A DNA stretch of 36,479 bases, from the IMG/VR virus record IMGVR_UViG_3300031902_000552, positions 1-36,479 of that record. One strand, given 5' to 3'. This DNA is from a virus. The translations under genes and the position numbers were made by a program. Below, piece after piece: positions 6,833-27,549 of the stretch. Below the pieces are notes generated by a model that saw only the letters and a list, made by a program, of their open reading frames with translations, made no database searches and was not told the DNA's origin. Position 1 is the first letter of the stretch. Each line of letters opens with the position of its first letter.

Positions 6833-6887
6833 GGCACAAAAACGCCCGCCCCGATCAGCGCTGATCGGGGCGGGCGTTTTTGTGCCT
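6832..6887. terminator. Bidirectional terminator, 56-bp perfect palindrome
   Basis: Two 28-base arms meet with no spacer and pair perfectly: AGGCACAAAAACGCCCGCCC onward, mirrored to end GTTTTTGTGCCT. The GC core is flanked by an A5 run on the left and a T5 run on the right, so it terminates in both directions. It lies between the plus-strand gene ending at 6832 and the minus-strand gene ending at 6892. Confidence 0.93.
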
Positions 6888-6891
6888 GGAA

Positions 6892-7416
6892 TTAGGGGAT
6901 ACGCACCTGACAGCCGCACAGCAGATCGAGGATGACGGGCGTCGCAAGATCCTGGCGCTCGTGGCCGGGCCGATAGTGCGCGACGCTGCGCCCACGTGGA
7001 TCGACCACGAGCACATCGCGCACGCCACACGCGAGGTAGAACGGTGCGCCCTCGTCGCCGATGTCTTTTTCCTCATAGCCCAGGCTCAAAATCTCAATCA
7101 CCGCTGCCGGCAGCAGATCCAGCGCCGAATCCGTATCCGGCGGCTCCACACAGAAGATCGCGATGTCGGGCCGCTTGATGCTGGAATCGGGATCGGGGAA
7201 GCGAATGAACACATCTTGCAGGCTGTAGCAGGCGCAGCCGTCGGTGCGACCGGGGATCGGTCGGATCGATGCCTCAATCCGCTTGGCGGCCTTCTGGTGG
7301 CGGACGGCGGGGCTGGCTTCCCACTTGGTATGCCCGCGCACATATTCGAGCCGCACGGGCGCGCCGCTGGCGTCGGTGTGCAGCATCAATTCCAGCGGGT
7401 CGGTGGTGGTGGTCAT
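6892..7416 (-). CDS. Uma2-family (DUF820) PD-(D/E)XK endonuclease-like protein
   Basis: A 174-residue protein of the Uma2 family, a restriction-endonuclease-like fold whose cellular role is poorly known. Visible marks are RPDIAIF (Asp84), AAVIEILS (Glu108), a nearby Lys117 (YEEKDIG) and the VLVVDPRGRSVAHYR strand near 136-150. The middle is less canonical than in its neighbour: the usual 'SPSTRRRD-KL-LY' segment is altered to SLGYEEKDIGDEGAPFYLAC. It starts at ATG 7416 behind GGAGGAC and follows 7423-7998 by 6 bases, so the two are translated from one message. Paired divergent Uma2 copies suggest a dimer or two specificities, which is inference. Confidence 0.85.
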   Translation of the reverse strand: MTTTTDPLELMLHTDASGAPVRLEYVRGHTKWEASPAVRHQKAAKRIEASIRPIPGRTDGCACYSLQDVFIRFPDPDSSIKRPDIAIFCVEPPDTDSALDLLPAAVIEILSLGYEEKDIGDEGAPFYLACGVRDVLVVDPRGRSVAHYRPGHERQDLATPVILDLLCGCQVRIP

Positions 7417-7422
7417 ACTGAC

Positions 7423-7998
7423 TCAGTCCTCCGTTGTCGGCAGGCCCGCGAAGATCCGTGCCAGTGGCACCGCGAACCCCGGCAGCAGCGGCGACGTGAG
7501 CGTGTCGCCGTCGCGCAGCGCGAGCGCAAGCGTCAGCCCCGCCGCCGCTAATCGGTACACGTCGATGGATCGGCGCGGCCAGTCCACGATCCAATATTCG
7601 TCGCAGCCGGCGCGGCTGTACAGCTTCAGCTTGGTGTCGCGGTCACGGCGGGCGTTGGCACCGCCGGGGGAGAGCACCTCCACTACCAGCTCGGGCGCGG
7701 CGTAGAGCTTGCCGCCCGTGCCCAGGATGGCCGCGAGGCGCGCGGTGCTGGCCCAGACCACATCGGGCGCGACATCATCATCATCGGCGAGAATCAGGCC
7801 CGGCGCAATGGCGGCCATGCCACGGGTGTCGGGCAGCCCCCAGGCGTCGAGCAGGCCACTCAGCCGCCCACACACGACCTGGTGATGCCAGTTTGGTTGC
7901 TTCGACACGTACAGGTCTCCATCAATAATTTCGCGGCGCTTCCCATCGTCGGGGAAGGCCAACAGATCGGCGGATGTAAAGCGGGTTGCGGTGGTCAT
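7423..7998 (-). CDS. Uma2-family (DUF820) endonuclease
   Basis: A 191-residue Uma2 protein with the complete family signature: N-terminal FTSADLLAFPDDGKRREIID, APDVVWAS (Asp79), ELVVEVLSPGGANARRDRDT (Glu107, Lys123) and AGCDEYWIVDWPRRSIDVYR. The Asp-Glu-Lys set matches a PD-(D/E)XK metal-dependent nuclease site. Uma2 genes are greatly expanded in cyanobacteria and Chloroflexota, where they are mostly chromosomal; a tandem pair inside a phage genome is less usual. ATG 7998 overlaps the stop of the upstream HTH gene by 4 bases (ATGA). Confidence 0.93.
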   Translation of the reverse strand: MTTATRFTSADLLAFPDDGKRREIIDGDLYVSKQPNWHHQVVCGRLSGLLDAWGLPDTRGMAAIAPGLILADDDDVAPDVVWASTARLAAILGTGGKLYAAPELVVEVLSPGGANARRDRDTKLKLYSRAGCDEYWIVDWPRRSIDVYRLAAAGLTLALALRDGDTLTSPLLPGFAVPLARIFAGLPTTED

Positions 7999-8270
7999 GT
8001 GGTTTCAACCTCCAATCGGGCACGGCTGCGGCGCTTGGCCGCAGCAACGGGCGACGGCGCGTCGTCAGCGGGCCGTCCGCGCTGCGGCGGTTGCGCGTCC
8101 CACTGCGCCTTCAGCGCATGCACGCTCCGCGCATCAATCAGCCAGCGCCCGCCACGCGTGGCCGGGCCGAGCCGCCGGCCGATGAGGTCGCCGCGCTTGA
8201 GCAGCAGCAGGATATAGTTTGCGGAGCGGTCGAGCAGCTCCGCCGCCTCTGCTGGGGTCATGTCGTCCAT
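7995..8270 (-). CDS. Small helix-turn-helix protein (excisionase/MerR-like)
   Basis: A 91-residue protein. Residues 1-50 (MTPAEAAELLDRSANYILLL, then GDLIGRRLGPATRGGRWLID) form the winged helix-turn-helix of excisionase and MerR-type DNA-binding domains: a short helix, a recognition helix and a beta-wing carrying the Arg-rich turn. A basic tail follows. In temperate phages such proteins direct excision or regulate an operon. Being first in line before two Uma2 genes, with 4-base overlap, it may be their regulator or guide. The ATG at 8270 is preferred over GTG 8273 because GGGAGA stands at better spacing. Confidence 0.75.
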   Translation of the reverse strand: MDDMTPAEAAELLDRSANYILLLLKRGDLIGRRLGPATRGGRWLIDARSVHALKAQWDAQPPQRGRPADDAPSPVAAAKRRSRARLEVETT

Positions 8271-8470
8271 CACGAATCTCCCTTGAACAGCTCGCCATCC
8301 TGATCGCGTTCATCGCGCAGCTCCAGCACCGCATCCACGAGCGGCCAGATCATGCGCCGCAGATCGCGCTCCATTGCGCGCTGGCTCGCCCGCACAATCG
8401 CGACGAACGCCGCGCTGAAGAATACGATCGCGCACAGCCCACCGATGATCAACAGCGTTCGCGTGTCCAT
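8270..8470 (-). CDS. Small single-pass membrane protein
   Basis: A 66-residue protein with one N-terminal transmembrane helix (TLLIIGGLCAIVFFSAAFVA, residues about 4-24) and a charged cytoplasmic tail (MERDLRRMIWPLVDAVLELR). The start is ATG 8470, preceded by GGAGG at 6-base spacing; the upstream extension of the frame to 8545 runs through a hairpin and is not used. The stop overlaps the next start by one base (TGATG). Function unknown. Confidence 0.72.
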   Translation of the reverse strand: MDTRTLLIIGGLCAIVFFSAAFVAIVRASQRAMERDLRRMIWPLVDAVLELRDERDQDGELFKGDS

Positions 8471-8522
8471 TGCAGACCTCCTCTGATCCGTGTCTATCCC
8501 AAGGGGCACACGATAGGCGGTG

Positions 8523-8553
8523 GGTGTGGGGTGTGCTGTCCACACCCCACACC
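8523..8553. terminator. Intercistronic hairpin
   Basis: A perfect 13-bp stem (GGTGTGGGGTGTG paired with CACACCCCACACC) with a 5-base loop, between the minus-strand genes 8562-8735 and 8270-8470. There is no T-run on either side, so it would attenuate or stabilise RNA rather than act as a full intrinsic terminator. It may lower expression of the downstream HTH-Uma2 genes. Confidence 0.6.
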
Positions 8554-8561
8554 AGCGGTTC

Positions 8562-8735
8562 CTAGTGTCCGTTGGAGCGGTTCAGCCGCGCAAGGTCGCG
8601 TTTAAGCGTTGCGATCAGCTGCTCCTGTGCCTGGATAAGCCGCGCGTTCAGCTGCCACATCAGCAGCGCACCCACGACACCTCCGACCACAAAGGCCAGA
8701 CCAAGCAACACCAGGAAAACCGTCATATCGCCCAT
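8562..8735 (-). CDS. Small single-pass membrane protein
   Basis: A 57-residue protein: a transmembrane helix (VFLVLLGLAFVVGGVVGALL), then an amphipathic helix (QLNARLIQAQEQLIATLKRD) ending NRSNGH. ATG 8735 stands 8 bases after a GGGGG run. It is the first gene behind the promoter at 8791-8819. Its shape recalls the gene at 8270-8470 and small phage holins or exclusion proteins, but no family can be named. Confidence 0.68.
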   Translation of the reverse strand: MGDMTVFLVLLGLAFVVGGVVGALLMWQLNARLIQAQEQLIATLKRDLARLNRSNGH

Positions 8736-8762: not shown

Positions 8763-8819
8763 GTGTCAGGTTGCTTTCCCTGACACGTTAAATATACCAC
8801 GTTTCACAGTATTTGTCAA
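8763..8819 (-). promoter_or_regulatory. Strong leftward promoter with start-site inverted repeat
   Basis: On the minus strand, TTGACA (8814-8819), a 17-base spacer and TATATT (8791-8796) give a near-consensus sigma-70 promoter. The predicted start near 8784 coincides with a perfect inverted repeat, GTGTCAGG and CCTGACAC (8763-8770 and 8779-8786), separated by 8 bases. The repeat may be an operator or the 5' hairpin of the message. It drives 8735 down to 6892. Confidence 0.85.
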
Positions 8820-8842: not shown

Positions 8843-8884
8843 CACCACGGCCCCGATCTGCATTGCCAGATCGGGGCCGTGGTG
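8843..8884. terminator. Strong hairpin between two leftward operons
   Basis: A perfect 18-bp stem (CACCACGGCCCCGATCTG with its complement) and a 6-base loop CATTGC. No T-run follows in the leftward direction. It lies after the last gene of the 8902-17750 block and just upstream of the promoter at 8791-8819, so it likely insulates the two. Confidence 0.75.
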
Positions 8885-8901: not shown

Positions 8902-9204
8902 TTACGAGCGGCGTGCGCGCGTGCGTCGTTGCGCCTGCCGCAGATCTTCAATCGTTCCTTTCAGCTCCACCACCGAGTCAAGATAGCGATCCGCCACGCC
9001 GCGCCAGAAGCGCGCGCTGCGCTGCCAGCGCCGCCATTGCCACGCGAACAGCAGCGCCAGGATCCACGGCAGCACGGTCAGGCCGTAGCGCAGCGTCAGC
9101 GCCAACAGCGCGCCGCCCACGGCATGCCACTGCGCGGCGGTGAGGGTGCCGGCAGCCAGGGTGCCGCCGGCGATCAGGCCGAATAGGGCCACGAATCGCA
9201 TCAT
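8902..9204 (-). CDS. Two-helix membrane protein
   Basis: A 100-residue protein with two transmembrane segments (RFVALFGLIAGGTLAAGTLT and VLPWILALLFAWQWRRW), then a basic cytoplasmic tail with a short helix (SVVELKGTIEDLRQAQRRTR). ATG 9204 overlaps the stop of the upstream secreted-protein gene (ATGA). Holins have this size and topology, but a better-placed holin-like gene lies next to the endolysin at 26552, so I leave the function open. Confidence 0.7.
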   Translation of the reverse strand: MMRFVALFGLIAGGTLAAGTLTAAQWHAVGGALLALTLRYGLTVLPWILALLFAWQWRRWQRSARFWRGVADRYLDSVVELKGTIEDLRQAQRRTRARRS

Positions 9205-9581
9205 CGCAGCCCCGCAATCGGATGTGCGGCGCGATAGGCGGCGGCTTCTGCCTGCATCTGCGCCACACGTGCGGCCAACTCATTCGCCACCGCCAGGCCG
9301 TCGCCACTGCATGAGAACGCAGTCACGAATCCATACGGATAGCCAATCGGGTCACTGACGGTCGCGCTCAGTTTCGCCGATGCGATTTCGTAGCTACACG
9401 CCTGCATGGCCGGCGCGCTGGTTTGCACTGCCAGACGCAGCCGGTAGATCGTAGCGCGACGTGGCACGACGATGGTTTGCACGACTGGGCGCGCGATGGT
9501 TGCGCGCGGCAGCGGCGCGGGGAGTGGCGCGAACGAGGTCAGCGGCAGCGCCAAAAGCAAAACAATCACGAGCTTGATCAT
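9201..9581 (-). CDS. Secreted protein with signal peptide
   Basis: A 126-residue protein starting MIKLVIVLLLALPLTSFAPL, a standard Sec signal peptide. The mature part is beta-rich (RRATIYRLRLAVQTS) with two Cys (ACSYEIASAK and AFSCSGDGLA) and ends in a short helix with AQMQAEAAAYRAAHP. ATG 9581 follows AGGAG at 8 bases and overlaps the upstream stop by 4 bases. No family recognised. It would act at or outside the cell envelope. Confidence 0.7.
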   Translation of the reverse strand: MIKLVIVLLLALPLTSFAPLPAPLPRATIARPVVQTIVVPRRATIYRLRLAVQTSAPAMQACSYEIASAKLSATVSDPIGYPYGFVTAFSCSGDGLAVANELAARVAQMQAEAAAYRAAHPIAGLR

Positions 9582-10330
9582 CGATTCCACTCCTGTGGCG
9601 ACGGCGTGATCACTACACCCGCATTGCCGCCATATGTTTCAATCCATTTCGCCTTGGCCTGTTCCTGGAGCACGCTCAGATCCGCGTCGTCGCACACTTC
9701 GACCATCTTGCCAGGAATGCCCGTTTGAGCACACGGCGGCGGCGGAGGTGGCGGGGTGGCGACCATCGGCACCTCGGGAGGAATCGGCGGCGCGGTCGGT
9801 CGAACGGCCAGATCTGCGCCAACCATCCCCAGCTGCGGCCAATCAGCGGCGCGTAGCCAGATCACGCCGCTGCCGGCGACATCCGCCTGAATCCAATCGC
9901 TGCCAAAGTGCGCGAGCGGTGTAATCACGCGGGTGGCCTCGATCTGCCAGCGCGGCGCTTCGTTGGGAGCGCCGTAGGCTGGCAGCATGGCGACGCCGGG
10001 GGTTGGGCGTTGGGGGATGGGAGCCCTGGCCGCTGCGGCGGGCGCGGCGCTGGGCACGGTGGCGGCGCGCGGTGGCATGATCGGCTGCGGCACGGCCCCG
10101 AAGCGGATGGTCAGCCCGATCAGCACCAGCCCGATCAGCCCACCGCCGATCAGCGAGATCAGACTGCGCGGCATGGGCACGCGGGCTGCCGGCGCGGGCG
10201 CGGGCGCGGCGCGGCGCATCGGTGGCGGCGCGGCATCCTCCGGTGCCGGCGTGGCCTCCTCCAGCGGCGGCGACAGGCGGATGAATCCGCGGCTGTCGCG
10301 GTCGTCGTCGGTAAAGCGGATGGTTGCCAT
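9578..10330 (-). CDS. Membrane-anchored protein with SH3-like extracellular part
   Basis: A 250-residue protein. Residues 1-55 are cytoplasmic, acidic then Pro/Ala-rich; a transmembrane helix (LISLIGGGLIGLVLIGLTIR) follows near 57-77; the remainder is outside. Residues about 125-165 (RWQIEATRVITPLAHFGSDW, then IQADVAGSGVIWLRAADW) have the pattern of a bacterial SH3 domain, which often binds cell-wall peptides. A Pro-rich linker (ATPPPPPPPCA) leads to a C-terminal segment with two Cys. ATG 10330 directly follows the stop of the upstream gene (TAAATGG). Wall sensing or surface modification is plausible, not shown. Confidence 0.68.
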   Translation of the reverse strand: MATIRFTDDDRDSRGFIRLSPPLEEATPAPEDAAPPPMRRAAPAPAPAARVPMPRSLISLIGGGLIGLVLIGLTIRFGAVPQPIMPPRAATVPSAAPAAAARAPIPQRPTPGVAMLPAYGAPNEAPRWQIEATRVITPLAHFGSDWIQADVAGSGVIWLRAADWPQLGMVGADLAVRPTAPPIPPEVPMVATPPPPPPPCAQTGIPGKMVEVCDDADLSVLQEQAKAKWIETYGGNAGVVITPSPQEWNR

Positions 10331-11545
10331 TTAGTGCCTGCTTTCGGTTATGTCGAACGACCAGCGCCCAAGATTTACCTGGCGCGCGCTTCCGTCCGCA
10401 ATCCAGCTGTCGCGCAGCGCGCCAGCGCTGGTGTCACCGATCCGAAGTTCTGCCGCCAGCTGCTTCAGCGTCCATGGTCGTCGCCCGAACGCGTCACGTG
10501 CTGCACGGAGATACGCGGCGTCGTGCGCGGTCGTCTGGCGTCGGGTGGCGTCGGGTGCCTCACGTGATTCTGACGACTGCAATCGTGAATCCGCGTGCAG
10601 CCGGAGGTCGGCAGCGTCACGACGTACCTGATCGCCGTCCCCAACCGCGATGCGCATGCCGTCCGCAGCGGGCATGGTCATCGTGGTATACGTGGCGGGG
10701 AGCGTGTCTGCACGTGCGATCTGTGCCGGCAGCGTGACAGAACGATCCTCGCGCACATGCAGGGTCGAGCCGGTCAAGCTCTCGCTGATATAGCCCATCA
10801 CATCCTGGATATCCTGATTGTCATCAAGCTCGCTGAACGGCAGCGCCGCGCCGCTGAGGGTCTTCACACTCTGCCCCACCTCGCGCAGCGTCTTATCGAT
10901 GCCGCCCACAAGGCCGCGCATCACGCCGGCCAGTTCCTCGCGCTCAGCGACCGTCAAATTCGCAAAGCCGATCAGCGCCTTCTCTTGGGCACGGAGCAAG
11001 GTGGCGCGCAGGATCGCGATATCGGCCTGGGTTTGCAACTCGTAGCGCTTGACGATATGCGCCTGCTCCAGCTGGGCGGTGAGTTCCTCGCTGGAAACGG
11101 GTGCCCAGAGCAAGGCCGGAATGAGGATGAAGCCGATCAGGCCGATAAACACCTGCTGGTAGATCAGGCCGCTCTCGGCAGTCGCCGGCTGCGCAGCCCA
11201 CCAGGCGTATTGCAGCTGGAACGAGTAGTAGAGCAGATAAATCGACGCCCCCACCACGGCGATATGCCCCCAGGTCTGGGCGTTGACCCGCTGGAGCAGC
11301 ATGCCGGCGGGACTCCAGGGGATAAGGAAGCTGACCAGCGTCGGCGGGGCCAGCACCAGGATCGCCGTGAAGGCGATGGCGATTGGCTGGCTGGTGGTGA
11401 GCTGGGATTGGACGCCCCACCAATAGATCGCGCTGGCGATCATGCTGACGAGTGCGAGCAGCAGCAACACGCTTTTGGCCGTGATCTGCATCACGCCGTT
11501 GCGGCGCGTATTGCGGCGGATGTGGTCGAGATAGCGGCTGCTCAC
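10331..11545 (-). CDS. Polytopic membrane protein with C-terminal DNA-binding-like domain
   Basis: A 404-residue protein starting at GTG 11545, which overlaps the LuxR-type gene's stop (GTGA). Four transmembrane helices occupy about residues 20-155 (VLLLLALVSMIASAIYWWGV; IAIAFTAILVLAPPTLVSFL; GHIAVVGASIYLLYYSF; VFIGLIGFILIPALLW). A long helical region follows (residues 160-250), then an acidic linker. Near the end, AYLRAARDAFGRRPWTLKQL continuing to QVNLGRWSFDI looks like a small winged helix. This layout of membrane sensor plus cytosolic DNA-binding end suggests a one-component membrane regulator. Alternatively it may be a membrane anchor for the partition complex encoded just upstream. Confidence 0.62.
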   Translation of the reverse strand: MSSRYLDHIRRNTRRNGVMQITAKSVLLLLALVSMIASAIYWWGVQSQLTTSQPIAIAFTAILVLAPPTLVSFLIPWSPAGMLLQRVNAQTWGHIAVVGASIYLLYYSFQLQYAWWAAQPATAESGLIYQQVFIGLIGFILIPALLWAPVSSEELTAQLEQAHIVKRYELQTQADIAILRATLLRAQEKALIGFANLTVAEREELAGVMRGLVGGIDKTLREVGQSVKTLSGAALPFSELDDNQDIQDVMGYISESLTGSTLHVREDRSVTLPAQIARADTLPATYTTMTMPAADGMRIAVGDGDQVRRDAADLRLHADSRLQSSESREAPDATRRQTTAHDAAYLRAARDAFGRRPWTLKQLAAELRIGDTSAGALRDSWIADGSARQVNLGRWSFDITESRH

Positions 11546-11739
11546 GATCCCACCGCCTTCTCGCGCTGCCACGCCGCGATCAGACTGTCGCGGTCGTGCG
11601 CGCCCAGCTTGCGGTACAAGACGGCGATGGCGTCGGCGACGGCGATCACGCTGATGCCCAGCTTGTGCGCGATCATGCGGTTGGAGTGGCCGGCAGCGAA
11701 GAGATCGAGGATCTCGGTCTCGCGTGGGGTGAGGTTCAT
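11542..11739 (-). CDS. LuxR/GerE-type helix-turn-helix protein (single domain)
   Basis: A 65-residue protein that is almost only a GerE domain: LTPRETEILDLFAAGHSNRM (scaffold helices), then IAHKLGISVIAVADAIAVLY (recognition helix) and RKLGAHDRDSLIAAW. This is the DNA-binding end of NarL/LuxR response regulators without a receiver, so activity must be set by abundance or a partner. It is translationally coupled to the membrane protein at 10331-11545, an obvious candidate partner. The ribosome-binding site AAGGAG is 5 bases before ATG 11739. Confidence 0.88.
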   Translation of the reverse strand: MNLTPRETEILDLFAAGHSNRMIAHKLGISVIAVADAIAVLYRKLGAHDRDSLIAAWQREKAVGS

Positions 11740-11848
11740 GGTGACTCCTTTTGGATCGTACGCTACAATACGGCGGGGTGCGCTGCGGGTGACTCCCGGC
11801 GCGTGCGGCGTGGCTCTTTCACAGCCATGCCGCGCCCCATGGGATGAT

Positions 11849-12862
11849 CTAGGTCGCCGGGGGTGATCCTCCTTCCTCCAAGAGCGCGATCAGGGCATCG
11901 ATGTGATCGAGCGCCGTGTGATAGTCCGGTAGGCGGATCATGGTGTAGCTCGGCGCATGCACGAGTCGCGCGCGTTCCTGGGTTACGTAGGCGCGCGCGG
12001 CGGTGATTGCGATCTGTCGCTGGGCCTGCGCGGCCTGCCAGGTGGCGACCTGGACGCTGCCGCCCGCGCCGTTCGTGATCAGCGCCTGATCTGCGGCCTC
12101 GGCGGACTCGTAGGCGCGACGATCTGCGCCGGTCTCGCGCTCGGCTTTGGGCGTGCTGAGTATCCGCCGCTGGGCCTCGGCCAACGCCCGCTCCGGATAA
12201 TTGTAGTCGTGCGTTTTCCAGCCATCGGGCGCGATCAGGTGCGCCGGCGCGCCACGGCGATTCCATTGCCAGCCATCGGGCGCAGCGGGCCACGGCGCGG
12301 GCGGCGGCTGGCCGGGGCCGAGACGGGTGCCGCGCCGCTCGGGCGGTGGCGGGGCGTCGTCAAAATCCGCACCGGTGCGGATTTTGGTTACACGGATCGA
12401 TGACTCGATCTGGCGTTTCGTTGGCGGTTCTGGCGCGCTCAACGCCTGATCAACAAGCTCGGGCGGCGTGGACTCGCGCGCCAGCAGCGCCGCCGTTGAT
12501 TGTGTAAGCCAGTTGCGCGCAATCGCGTCGGCATACTGTGTATTCGCCATCGCCAGGCGGTGAATATTGAGCAGCCGCTCAGCGGTGTCGTCGCTGGTGC
12601 TGGTCGCCTCTAGAAAGATCTTCCACTCGCCGTGCTTCGCCAGCTCGTGTGCCTCGTTGAGCCAGCGGCACATATCCAACAGCGCCTCGCCGCTGCGCCG
12701 ACGTGCGCCGATGTAGTTGCGCGCAATCACTTGCAGCGGCTCGGGTAGCGCACCGGCCTGCGCGGGTAGCGCGGTGCCGTCCAGGTCGGCGCGCTGGCCG
12801 ACCGTGAAGCGCGTGCCGATCTTAAGCGTCGGCGCTTTGATACGATCAGTTAGTTTCCCCAT
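11849..12862 (-). CDS. DUF3102-like protein, candidate ParA partner (ParB substitute)
   Basis: A 337-residue protein overlapping the 3' end of parA by 13 bases. Residues about 45-125 (YIGARRRSGEALLDMCRWLN; HELAKHGEWKIFLEATSTSD; DTAERLLNIHRLAMANTQYA) match the pattern of DUF3102, helix-rich proteins often encoded beside ParA on phages and plasmids. A Pro-rich linker follows, then WQWNRRGAPAHLIAPDGWK and a C-terminal helical part. No classical ParB motif is visible, so it would be the DNA-binding adaptor of an atypical partition pair. The 109 bases after its stop (11740-11848) hold no recognised gene, and no clear terminator. Confidence 0.7.
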   Translation of the reverse strand: MGKLTDRIKAPTLKIGTRFTVGQRADLDGTALPAQAGALPEPLQVIARNYIGARRRSGEALLDMCRWLNEAHELAKHGEWKIFLEATSTSDDTAERLLNIHRLAMANTQYADAIARNWLTQSTAALLARESTPPELVDQALSAPEPPTKRQIESSIRVTKIRTGADFDDAPPPPERRGTRLGPGQPPPAPWPAAPDGWQWNRRGAPAHLIAPDGWKTHDYNYPERALAEAQRRILSTPKAERETGADRRAYESAEAADQALITNGAGGSVQVATWQAAQAQRQIAITAARAYVTQERARLVHAPSYTMIRLPDYHTALDHIDALIALLEEGGSPPAT

Positions 12863-13671
12863 CGGCTCCGCACTTCCTCGGCTAATGCTGCGTAGGCCGC
12901 TGCTCCTGCCGACGTCGGCGCGTAAGATGAGATCGGCTGCCCAGCGCTGGGCGCTTCGGCAAGGTAGGTGCTCAGCGGGATCTCGGTCGCGAACATCAGC
13001 GCGCCATACGCCGCCCGCGCTGCCTGGCCGATCTCGCGGCTGAGCGCCGTCCGTTTATCGACCATGGTGAGGACAATGCCGCCGATGTGCAGATCGGGGC
13101 TGATTGTCTGGATATCCTGGATCGTCTCGTTCAGCTTCTCCATCGCGTTCAAGGCCAGATACTGCGCTTGCAGCGGCACGATGATCGTGTCGGCTGCAAC
13201 GAGCGCGTTCGCCGTCATCAGGCCAATCGAGGGCGGGGAATCAATCAGGATGTAGTCGTACTGCTGCCGTGCGCAGCGTAGGCCGTTCTTCAGCAGCTGC
13301 TCGCGCCCGTACTTATTGGAGAGTCGCTCCTGCGCGCCGTCCAGGCGCCGGCTGGCCGGCAGTAGATCGACGCCGAACGCGGTGGTGATGATCGGCAGCT
13401 GCGTTGCCAGCGCTGGGTTTAAGAGCACTTCATAGATCATCGGATCATCGTCGCTGATTGCCACGCCCAGCGCGGTCGTCAGGTCGGACTGGTAGTCGGT
13501 GTCGATGCACAGCACGCGGGATCCGTGGCGTGCTAGCTCGACGGCCAGCGATGCGGTGGTGGTGGTCTTGCCGACGCCGCCTTTGGGTAAGACGAGCGCG
13601 ATGGTCTGGGCCGTGCGGTGCGCGGGTCGCACGCGGTACAGGGTTTCGGTTGGTTGTGTGTAGGCGATCAT
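12850..13671 (-). CDS. parA: ParA-family partition ATPase
   Basis: A 273-residue ParA/Soj-type ATPase that moves DNA cargo over the nucleoid. It has the deviant Walker A KGGVGKTT (residues 30-37, with both signature lysines), CIDTDYQSDLT for motif A', DYILIDSPPSIGLMTANALV for Walker B, and VPLQAQYLALNAMEKL. No N-terminal HTH is present, as in small plasmid (type Ib) and chromosomal ParA. The start is ATG 13671 behind GAGGAG. Five 8-bp repeats lie 20 bases upstream of the start. Its presence in a phage genome suggests maintenance as an extrachromosomal prophage. Confidence 0.95.
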   Translation of the reverse strand: MIAYTQPTETLYRVRPAHRTAQTIALVLPKGGVGKTTTTASLAVELARHGSRVLCIDTDYQSDLTTALGVAISDDDPMIYEVLLNPALATQLPIITTAFGVDLLPASRRLDGAQERLSNKYGREQLLKNGLRCARQQYDYILIDSPPSIGLMTANALVAADTIIVPLQAQYLALNAMEKLNETIQDIQTISPDLHIGGIVLTMVDKRTALSREIGQAARAAYGALMFATEIPLSTYLAEAPSAGQPISSYAPTSAGAAAYAALAEEVRSRWGN

Positions 13672-18171: not shown

Positions 18172-19089
18172 GTGGCTGTCATCGCATTCCCGCGCCCCGT
18201 ATCGCGCACGCGTGCGCAAACAATGCGCACGCACATTCCGTCATGGCGAACCGCGCGGCTCGCTGACGGACGGCGACCCCGTGGCGTCGCCTCGTATGTT
18301 GCCAAGCTGGAACAGTTTCTGGAGTGGTCCGGCGAGATCACGCCGAACGATCTCACGGCTGACCTGATCGCGCGCTACAAGATCGCGCTGCATGAGCGCA
18401 ATCTGGCGATGGGAACCGTGCGCCATTGCCTGACCGTGCTGCGCGCATTTTGCGACTGGGGTGTCGCGCAGGGGCTGCTCGATAGTAATCCCGCGCTCGC
18501 GGTCGGCCATCCGCACGTGGAAGAGTCCGATCCTGATCCGCTCACGCGGGCGAAAATCGATGCCTTGCTGGCCGCGATTGACGAGCCGCCACAGTCACAC
18601 AAGCTGACCTGGCGGCGCAACCGGCGGGCGGTCATGCTCGGCCTGTATTGCGGTCTCCGAATCGCGGAGATCGCCGAGCTGAAATGGGGCGATGTCGATC
18701 TGGCGCGGGGCGAGATTATCGTCCGGAAAAAGGGCGGCAAGGGCGGCAAGAGCCGCGTGGTGCCGATCTGTGATGAATTGCTGGCGGAGCTGCGCCTGGC
18801 CAAGCACCAGCGGGTGGGCGATGCGGTGGTGGATCAGGGCGACGGGACGGCGCTGAGCGTCAAATCGCTCGGCCACATTTACGAGCGCTGGTTACGGCGG
18901 CGCGGGATCGTGTTGCATTCCCACCAGCTCCGCAAGACCTTCGCAACGGAGCTGTATATCGCTGGCGAGGATCTGGCGACGATTCAGCGGCTGCTCGGGC
19001 ATCGTGATCCGAAGACCACCATGCGCTATTTGGGGGCCAGCGCCCCCAAGGAACGGGCGGCGGTGCAGAAATTAAAATTCCGTAAGTAG
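18172..19089 (+). CDS. int: Tyrosine recombinase 1 (integrase / Xer-like)
   Basis: A 305-residue tyrosine recombinase with an N-terminal core-binding domain (YVAKLEQFLEWSGEITPNDL) and a complete catalytic set: Arg162 (YCGLRIAEIAEL), Lys in the KGGKGGKSR beta-hairpin, His251-x-x-Arg254 (HQLRKTF), His277 (LLGHRDPKTT) and nucleophile Tyr286 (MRYLG). Length and spacing fit XerC/D-like enzymes, so it may integrate the prophage or resolve dimers of a circular form. GTG 18172 stands 6 bases after AGGAGG. Between the terminator at 18014 and this gene, 18093-18114 contains GCATTGC and GCAATGC in inverted order, a possible arm or core site. Confidence 0.95.
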   Translation: MAVIAFPRPVSRTRAQTMRTHIPSWRTARLADGRRPRGVASYVAKLEQFLEWSGEITPNDLTADLIARYKIALHERNLAMGTVRHCLTVLRAFCDWGVAQGLLDSNPALAVGHPHVEESDPDPLTRAKIDALLAAIDEPPQSHKLTWRRNRRAVMLGLYCGLRIAEIAELKWGDVDLARGEIIVRKKGGKGGKSRVVPICDELLAELRLAKHQRVGDAVVDQGDGTALSVKSLGHIYERWLRRRGIVLHSHQLRKTFATELYIAGEDLATIQRLLGHRDPKTTMRYLGASAPKERAAVQKLKFRK

Positions 19090-26551: not shown

Positions 26552-26896
26552 GTGATGATCAGCCCACCCACCCACGCCGGCAAGATCGCCGACGCCCAGC
26601 GCCGGCGCCTGGAAGTCCTGGAGATCCAGGCGGCGGAGCTGGGCATCTCCACGCCGCCGCAGATCACGACCGAGATCGAGGATCTGCGGCACGCCCTGGC
26701 CGGCGATGTGCAGCCACTGGAGCCGATTAGCGCCGCGCAGCGCTACCAGGCGACCATGCGCGCCGTGATGCTGCTCAGCCAGCAGCTGGCGGCGGTCGAG
26801 GTCAAAGTCGAGCGCGTGTACTGGCTGCTGCCGCTGATTCTGTTTGTGTATTTATTTGCCTCGTTTGCATTGGAGCATCTGAAATGGCCGATTTGA
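26552..26896 (+). CDS. Holin-like protein with adaptor-type N-terminal segment
   Basis: A 114-residue protein. N-terminal helix pair RRRLEVLEIQAAELGI then STPPQITTEIEDLRHALAGD, a coiled coil (LLSQQLAAVEVKVERVYW), and one C-terminal transmembrane helix (LLPLILFVYLFASFALEHL). The membrane-anchored coil resembles XhlA-type lysis proteins, and it overlaps the endolysin gene by 13 bases. The N-terminal 'RRL--LE-QAA-YGI-TPP-I--EIEDL' pattern is familiar from bacterial NACHT/TIR signalling proteins, an unusual combination. Start GTG 26552 (GGAG 11 bases upstream) or ATG 26555. Confidence 0.68.
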   Translation: MMISPPTHAGKIADAQRRRLEVLEIQAAELGISTPPQITTEIEDLRHALAGDVQPLEPISAAQRYQATMRAVMLLSQQLAAVEVKVERVYWLLPLILFVYLFASFALEHLKWPI

Positions 26897-27549
26897 CATT
26901 CCGTTCCGCGCCGCGCATCTCGGCGGCGAGCTTCACCCGCGTGCTGACCCGCGCCGCCTCACCAGTTGCTGGCGATGCCGCGAATCTGTACGCGATTATC
27001 GTGTCCTACGGCCTCGATCCGGCGGTCGCGCTGGCCATGTTCGCGCACGAGAGCCGCTATGGCAACGATGGCGTGGCGCATCGCTCGTTGAACTGGGGCA
27101 ACCTGCGGCATGGGGCGCGGGCGTACAAGATTGAATCCGGCTTTGAGTTTTACCGCAATTGGGCTGACAGCCTGCGCGACTGGTGCGAGCTAATCAGGGA
27201 TCGCTACGTTGGCCAAGGGCTGGCCACGATTGAGCTGGCGATTCCGGTGTACGCGCCCCCTAAAGATCATAACGTCCCGGCGAAGTACATCGCCGCCGTC
27301 CATCAGCTCGTGGCGGCCTGGCAGGCGTCGGATGCCAATGATGCGGGCCTCGGGCCGGTCTCGCGGATCGTGGCCGTCAGCGTGGCGCGCGTGCGGGCAC
27401 TGCCCAATCTCGAAGCCGCGGTTGTCAGCACGAAAAGCAAGGGCACAGCGGTTGGCGGGCTGCTGGTCGTGGGCGCGCTGGTGCAGGGGAGCGTGACCTG
27501 GCTGAAGCTGCGCGACGGGCAGTTTATGCACAGCTCGGTGCTGCTATGA
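26884..27549 (+). CDS. Endolysin, glucosaminidase-like with C-terminal SH3-like domain
   Basis: A 221-residue cell-wall hydrolase. Residues about 33-155 (YAIIVSYGLDPAVALAMFAH, ESRYGNDGVAHRSLNWGNLR, FEFYRNWADSLRDWCELIRD, PAKYIAAVHQLVAAW) follow the FlgJ/LytG-type glucosaminidase fold, with probable catalytic Glu56 in AHESRYG. Residues 170-221 (EAAVVSTKSKGTAVGGLLVV; VTWLKLRDGQFMHSSVLL) form an SH3-like wall-binding end. No signal peptide, so export depends on the holin-like neighbour. Located at the head of the late operon and not after the tail genes. Confidence 0.85.
   Translation: MADLTFRSAPRISAASFTRVLTRAASPVAGDAANLYAIIVSYGLDPAVALAMFAHESRYGNDGVAHRSLNWGNLRHGARAYKIESGFEFYRNWADSLRDWCELIRDRYVGQGLATIELAIPVYAPPKDHNVPAKYIAAVHQLVAAWQASDANDAGLGPVSRIVAVSVARVRALPNLEAAVVSTKSKGTAVGGLLVVGALVQGSVTWLKLRDGQFMHSSVLL

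Follow-up and report, generated by a model that had tools for sequence, protein, structure and literature searches.

A five-gene operon with two Uma2 genes in a temperate phage

What are two unlike nuclease-like genes doing behind a small DNA-binding protein gene and two tiny membrane protein genes in a phage genome? The question is raised by the virus record IMGVR_UViG_3300031902_000552 (the window, meaning the whole 36,479-base stretch that was analysed), which is circular-ended, with its terminal 127 bases identical at both ends. The window is a temperate tailed phage that encodes a terminase, portal, scaffold, major capsid and tail proteins, two tyrosine recombinases, a CI/Cro-type helix-turn-helix (HTH) protein, HU and ParA. 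Judged from the sequence, the five genes form a self-contained operon, hereafter the cassette, of two single-helix transmembrane (TM) proteins, an HTH DNA-binding protein (HTH below) and two probable nucleases of the Uma2 family. Across the loci compared here, its core is TM2-TM1-HTH, and the number and origin of the Uma2 genes vary by locus. We tentatively read the cassette as a self-contained accessory (moron-type) module of a temperate phage, self-regulated and carrying Uma2 as an effector for defence and/or addiction, and we hold this reading with somewhat less than even confidence. The genes, in order of transcription, are:

8562 to 8735, minus strand: TM2, 57-amino-acid single-helix membrane protein with a charged C-terminal tail; ATG at 8735, after AAAGGGGGTGA.
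8270 to 8470, minus strand: TM1, 66-amino-acid single-helix membrane protein with tail motif RDLRRxxWPL.
7995 to 8270, minus strand: HTH, HTH_17, truncated MerR/Xis-like, with a basic PPxRGRP tail.
7423 to 7998, minus strand: Uma2B, PD-(D/E)XK nuclease-like; D79, E107, K123.
6892 to 7416, minus strand: Uma2A, divergent Uma2 subfamily; D84, E108 and K117, the last within a GYExKD motif.

An earlier note on this DNA had described these genes in this order, with TM2 starting at 8735, and they are present as described. Its naming of two different Uma2 proteins and an HTH protein also agrees with Pfam, where all three exceed the cut-off (Uma2, PF05685, cut-off 27 bits: 109.9 and 62.1 bits for the two proteins; HTH_17, cut-off 27: 28.0 bits). 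The tight overlap that it reported holds for TM1/HTH (1 nucleotide, nt) and HTH/Uma2B (4 nt), with a gap of 6 nt between Uma2B and Uma2A, and does not hold for TM2 and TM1, which lie 91 nt apart with a strong hairpin in the gap. Asp79 and Glu107, which it had placed in the second Uma2, sit in the Uma2 that is transcribed first (7423-7998); the equivalents in the other are Asp84 and Glu108.

The catalytic pattern of Uma2 is PD...E...K, and by this pattern both proteins look catalytically intact. R82-P83-D84, E108 and D118 were present in 100% of the Uma2A rows (n = 25) and K117 in 96%, while the Uma2B rows (n = 42) kept P78-D79 and E107 in 100% and K123 in 98%. The Uma2A lysine lies in the GYExKD motif and not at the position of the Uma2B lysine, so its catalytic role is uncertain. 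In its predicted model (predicted local distance difference test score, pLDDT, 83), Uma2A has the Uma2 fold, with a Z score of 16.0 over 146 residues for 1wdj, followed by 9y1l (14.7), 3ot2 (14.4), 6okh (14.3) and 3ijm (11.6), the next match being at 8.5; Uma2B was matched to 9y1l and 6okh at the level of sequence. Judged by the ratio of nonsynonymous to synonymous substitution rates (dN/dS; ~0.13 for Uma2B, window versus L088; ~0.24 for Uma2A, window versus L049), the phage Uma2 copies are under purifying selection. In Pfam score and in the fit of Uma2A to 1wdj, the phage proteins resemble the rest of the Uma2 family (PF05685, COG4636, DUF820), which one study places among PD-(D/E)XK proteins with 1wdj as its structure (PMC1913061). 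What sets the phage apart from the family at large is the pairing of two non-orthologous members downstream of two membrane genes and a MerR-like HTH gene; the lysine of Uma2A, moreover, falls within a GYExKD motif.

The TM2-TM1-HTH core recurs and its Uma2 genes are exchanged

For the three cassette proteins that are not membrane proteins, the nearest relatives (Uma2A 64%, G017; Uma2B 69%, G358; HTH 62%, G029) all sit in one Chloroflexota order, which we take to be Chloroflexales, and the phage host is therefore probably a Chloroflexales-like bacterium. A search of the 82 genomes of this order with the phage HTH matched five at E<=1e-3, four of them strongly and the fifth weakly. The four strong loci are:

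L055 (G066:C125): TM2-TM1-HTH-Uma2A.
L085 (G438:C560): TM2-TM1-HTH, then a convergent HTH_3/toxin-like gene pair.
L086 (G424:C194): TM2-TM1-HTH; the contig ends 352 nt past HTH.
L072 (G029:C113): HTH-Uma2A, no TM genes.

TM2 and TM1 thus lie directly upstream of HTH in three of these loci (L055, L085, L086), and Uma2A lies directly downstream of it in two (L055, L072); three of the four contigs are short (3.0-5.1 kb). The recurrence of this association at other loci supports a genuine link among the membrane, HTH and Uma2 genes. The linkage that the earlier note had supposed for all five genes therefore survives as a grouping of membrane, HTH and Uma2 genes in which Uma2 is optional and exchangeable; no second occurrence of the full set was found, and the phage carries an extra, differing Uma2 (B) between HTH and Uma2A. 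An HTH profile brought no additional strong member to light, either among 158 genomes from the class or among 400 sampled from the phylum, where matches at E<=1e-8 were confined to G029, G066 and, weakly, G251. Searches for HTH in 26 genomes of one family and in PLSDB plasmids, for Uma2A, HTH and TM1 in IMG/VR, and for both Uma2 proteins in INPHARED phages found none. Distant HTH_17 relatives in other contigs of the class (L130, L131, L153, L155) adjoin ParA genes, not TM or Uma2 genes, and were excluded as cassettes. At two loci the cassette is flanked by a convergent gene pair (L055:1146-1801 and L085:1282-1937, ~77-80% identical) for an HTH_3 protein, recognised on the L055 copy, and a small HigB-like protein.

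A second set of genes has the same layout. On two contigs of genome G066 (C72 and C50; loci L168 and L169), a different HTH has a small TM protein gene directly upstream and Uma2A directly downstream. Its HTH_17 match is below the cut-off (E 0.006, C50 copy); the TM gene is intact in L168 and altered in L169, where Uma2A runs off the contig end, and the L168 promoter region holds a palindrome (AAGTATA..TATACTT) with a GC-rich hairpin before it. Since this HTH and TM protein are unrelated to the first set, the combination of a small TM protein, a MerR-like HTH and Uma2A arose with two unrelated sets. Both are rare; at E<=1e-3 the second HTH type matches 4 of the 82 genomes, half of these weakly. 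L171 (48% to the second HTH type) sits among phage-like open reading frames with no Uma2 seen, and neither L172 nor L173 showed a cassette; all three were rejected.

Near-identical HTH proteins precede divergent Uma2A proteins: between L055 and L072, HTH is 93% alike over 78 amino acids (89% over 90 codons) and Uma2A only ~40%. In a tree of 25 Uma2A rows (one long branch flagged; partial copies L078 and L079 left out), the three cassette Uma2A need three changes, and a single clade was rejected (approximately unbiased test, p-AU 9e-42). Taken together, these two results make Uma2 an exchangeable cargo behind an HTH/membrane core. L085 and L086, with no Uma2 in reach, show that the core can exist without it.

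The main rival explanation accepts the exchange and gives it no purpose: abundant Uma2 genes would land by chance behind HTH, at an insertion-tolerant operon end, with no gain to the phage. Uma2B-like matches are indeed found in 60 of the 82 genomes, with up to 28 in one; Uma2A is mostly solitary, and no conserved neighbours of solitary copies were found; the cassette Uma2 genes have several origins, and the L168 copy is decayed. Chance capture accounts less readily for the arrival of Uma2 behind an HTH_17-type gene with two unrelated HTH/TM sets, for kept catalytic residues at dN/dS of ~0.13-0.24, or for the tight stop/start junctions between HTH and Uma2 (4-nt overlap in the window and L055, a few nt in L072, 1-nt overlap in L168). 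We regard it as a serious contender, albeit an unlikely one.

The HTH and membrane proteins

Residues 1-60 of the HTH model (pLDDT 77.5) form a predicted winged HTH, and the tail is poorly predicted. The PPxRGRP tail motif is invariant in all five HTH rows and resembles an AT-hook motif. The best Foldseek matches were BldC and mycobacteriophage Xis (E 0.01-0.02, ~0.02 for Xis), and PHROG gave weak excisionase matches (E 0.004 and 0.03), as would suit an excisionase or other recombination factor in an operon belonging to the integration module. However, the recombinase genes start at 18172 and 23982, ~9.9 and 15.7 kb off and so at least 9.9 kb from the HTH gene, and its conserved partners are membrane proteins and Uma2, with no recombinase seen beside the four homologues on their short contigs. 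We therefore rejected this role, which seems very improbable.

The TM1 tails resemble those of the three homologues more closely than shuffled sequences do (fractions of shuffles 0.004, 0 and 0), as does the TM2 tail with that of L086 (0.001); with L055 the TM2 similarity is marginal (0.06). Between L055 and L085, TM2 has a dN/dS of ~0.56. As small single-helix phage proteins encoded near the end of the tail module, TM2 and TM1 could be taken for a holin/antiholin-like lysis pair, but a lysin-like gene lies elsewhere, at 26884-27549 (weak PHROG endolysin match, E 0.008) and the TM pair recurs with HTH beside non-lysis genes, so we rejected a lysis function as hardly credible.

Predicted control of the operon

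The following sites bear on the expression of the cassette, the last two being read from the sequence:

8791 to 8819, minus strand: sigma70-type promoter, TTGACA-17-TATATT, 11 of 12 consensus bases.
8763 to 8786: perfect inverted repeat GTGTCAGG-N8-CCTGACAC, directly behind the -10; candidate HTH operator.
8523 to 8553, minus strand: hairpin in the TM2-TM1 gap, 13 pairs, no T run; z -2.6 (gap).
6833 to 6886: bidirectional terminator, perfect 54-nt palindrome with a T run on either strand.
8843 to 8884: upstream stem-loop, 18 pairs, setting the cassette apart from the minus-strand genes above.

The earlier note, too, had seen a consensus promoter ahead of the genes. A scan of the window found two such sites against 1.0 expected, which by count alone is not significant. 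A similar promoter stands at the same place ahead of all three TM2-TM1-HTH homologues (L055, L085, L086), so that across the four loci TTGACA or TTGACT is followed after 17 bases by TATATT, CATAAT or TACAAT, and then by a Shine-Dalgarno sequence of GGGGG- or GGGAGG-type ahead of TM2. A motif built from the three homologues matched those and L072 and nothing further in 158 genomes (reversed control, 0), and as it was derived from the loci themselves, only its specificity counts as a test. The L072 copy has three mismatches and no TTGACA.

The inverted repeat behind the -10 occurs once in the window and in none of 100 shuffles, and its 8 pairs were reached by 0.002 of mononucleotide shuffles; TCAG/CTGA-like arms at the same place form 7 pairs in L085 (0.024 of shuffles). 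Within the promoter spacer, a palindrome of 5 pairs is found in L055 and L085, and one of 4 pairs in L086. The palindromes in or behind the promoter are candidates for an autoregulatory operator of the kind expected in type II toxin-antitoxin (TA) systems; by exact pairing, those behind the -10 reach significance in the window and in L085 alone. Hairpins of unlike sequence recur in the TM2-TM1 gap (z -3.2 in L055, -4.4 in L085 and -3.2 in L086, versus mononucleotide shuffles), with no T run after the hairpin in any of the four loci, and may serve as an mRNA stabiliser or processing site. The 54-nt palindrome is predicted to terminate both the cassette and a convergent plus-strand gene; it fell outside the site scan's list, which requires a loop of at least 3.

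A putative accessory module for defence or addiction

At the sequence level, the cassette thus has its own promoter, insulating hairpins at both ends and a recurring TM2-TM1-HTH core. In the working model, HTH would bind the palindromes in and behind the promoter and, in the lysogen, set the level of its own operon. The effector nucleases would be the one or two Uma2 proteins, restrained or placed by HTH and perhaps also by the cytoplasmic tails of both membrane proteins. If this balance were broken, by foreign DNA entering at the membrane or by loss of the element, Uma2 would cleave DNA, and the cassette would thereby defend against other phages, act as an addiction module, or do both, to the benefit of the prophage.

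The view of a self-regulated effector cassette expressed in the lysogen draws on the Uma2 and MerR literature, on a defence-candidate match and on the placement of Uma2 in other virus records. According to one paper (PMC2701414), Uma2 is a 'likely solo toxin', seldom beside known antitoxins and mainly in cassettes of paralogues, and truncated MerR proteins are predicted to act as antitoxins to PIN nucleases; another (PMC4963859) describes the DUF820 proteins found around hydrogenase genes as TA-associated. Like the truncated-MerR/PIN pairs, the cassette sets a small truncated-MerR HTH beside a nuclease gene in a mobile element, with likely autoregulation; unlike them, its effector is Uma2 and not PIN, it has additional membrane genes, and it is known from sequence alone. 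A type II TA arrangement is found in the window, L055, L072 and L168: the gene immediately before Uma2 is small, encodes a DNA-binding protein and is coupled to Uma2 in translation. A position immediately before a nuclease gene would also suit a MerR-type HTH that works as autorepressor/antitoxin, and HTH may be an autorepressor and possibly an antitoxin.

By PADLOC, both Uma2 proteins matched the phage-defence candidate PDC-S03 (hidden Markov model E 8e-26 and 1e-11), which is a single-gene candidate, unlike the cassette; a literature search found no paper naming PDC-S03, and we know of no tested function for it. Six other IMG/VR records hold Uma2B-like genes. Three of these lie between an XRE-type repressor and a recombinase (L163:5022-5591, L164:1990-2559, L165:4968-5537), a site where lysogen-expressed accessory genes are often found; the Uma2 of L161 (4962-5567) has a recombinase downstream, and those of L160 and L162 showed no such arrangement. 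Phage morons, or lysogenic-conversion cassettes, likewise have their own promoter and terminators (here predicted), an orientation opposite to the tail genes and non-structural cargo; the present cassette differs in that its cargo is exchanged internally behind an HTH/membrane core and in its presence in bacterial contigs.

Several observations weigh against this reading. Of 31 fetched Uma2A places (L049-L079; 99 rows for the same place under several locus ids were dropped), only four have such an HTH upstream (L055, L072, L078, L079) and 27 do not. No Uma2 is in reach at L085 or L086, the latter contig ending early, L072 pairs HTH and Uma2A with no membrane genes, and the L168 Uma2A lacks the stretch bearing E and K. 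The TM2 tails of the window and L085 are no more alike than shuffles (0.95). Behind the -10, the repeat is without significance by exact pairing in L055 (5 pairs, 0.22), L086 (0.97) and L072 (0.83), and the spacer palindrome of L055 and L085 is absent from the window promoter.

The earlier note had proposed another model, in which HTH guides Uma2 and the membrane proteins station it where DNA enters the cell, the purpose being superinfection exclusion or host-DNA degradation. Two single-pass membrane proteins do share an operon, with its own promoter, with a DNA-binding protein and nucleases, and small prophage proteins are known exclusion factors according to one paper (PMC10883804). The absence of membrane genes from L072 and of Uma2 from L085 and L086 speaks against this model. 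For host-DNA degradation there is also the operon's own sigma70-type promoter, whereas for takeover nucleases one would expect lytic control. This model as a whole is distinctly unlikely in our judgement. A wider form of the accessory-module reading, that these loci represent a new class of mobile conflict modules combining small membrane protein(s), a truncated-MerR HTH with an AT-hook-like tail and an interchangeable Uma2, with HTH as both operator-binding repressor and antitoxin or targeting partner, is possible and rather doubtful. If the proposed role were true, prophage defence or addiction would be a function for the large orphan Uma2 family, which would also have defined partners for the first time. 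A recurring module in which the nuclease is swapped ties this unexplained family to definite partner genes. With a definite HTH partner, membrane partners and candidate operators gathered in one compact phage-borne operon, Uma2 function becomes experimentally approachable. No description of a membrane-HTH-Uma2 cassette was found in searches of open-licence literature.

Uma2 genes in other genomes and the surroundings of the cassette

Three genomes (G171, G346, G413) hold 21 to 28 Uma2B-like matches each, a large expansion, and Uma2 is multi-copy in some cyanobacteria and Thermus according to two reports (PMC9403480, PMC1274311). In 9 of the 30 listed Uma2B loci (L091, L092, L100-L106), the gene immediately upstream of Uma2 is nuoF (over cut-off for NCBIfam TIGR01959), which echoes DUF820 genes adjoining the hoxEF diaphorase genes of cyanobacteria (PMC4963859).

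No close relatives of the phage were found, the best terminase match being 51% and the best major capsid protein match 38%; the terminase relatives are other phages. No Uma2 was found in the records and genomes of three of them (L004, L005, L008), and the genome of a further one, L009, has six, outside its phage stretch as far as seen. The cassette (0.657 guanine plus cytosine) and the phage (0.645) are close in base composition, which gives no look of fresh acquisition. Above the cassette runs a series of minus-strand genes (8902-13671) for ParA (12850-13671), for a DUF3102-like protein and for several membrane or exported proteins that match no family (8902-9204, 9201-9590, 9578-10330, 10331-11572). 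Maintenance of the phage may perhaps be partly plasmid-like. The two tyrosine recombinases in this single phage (18172-19089 and 23982-24980) differ from each other.

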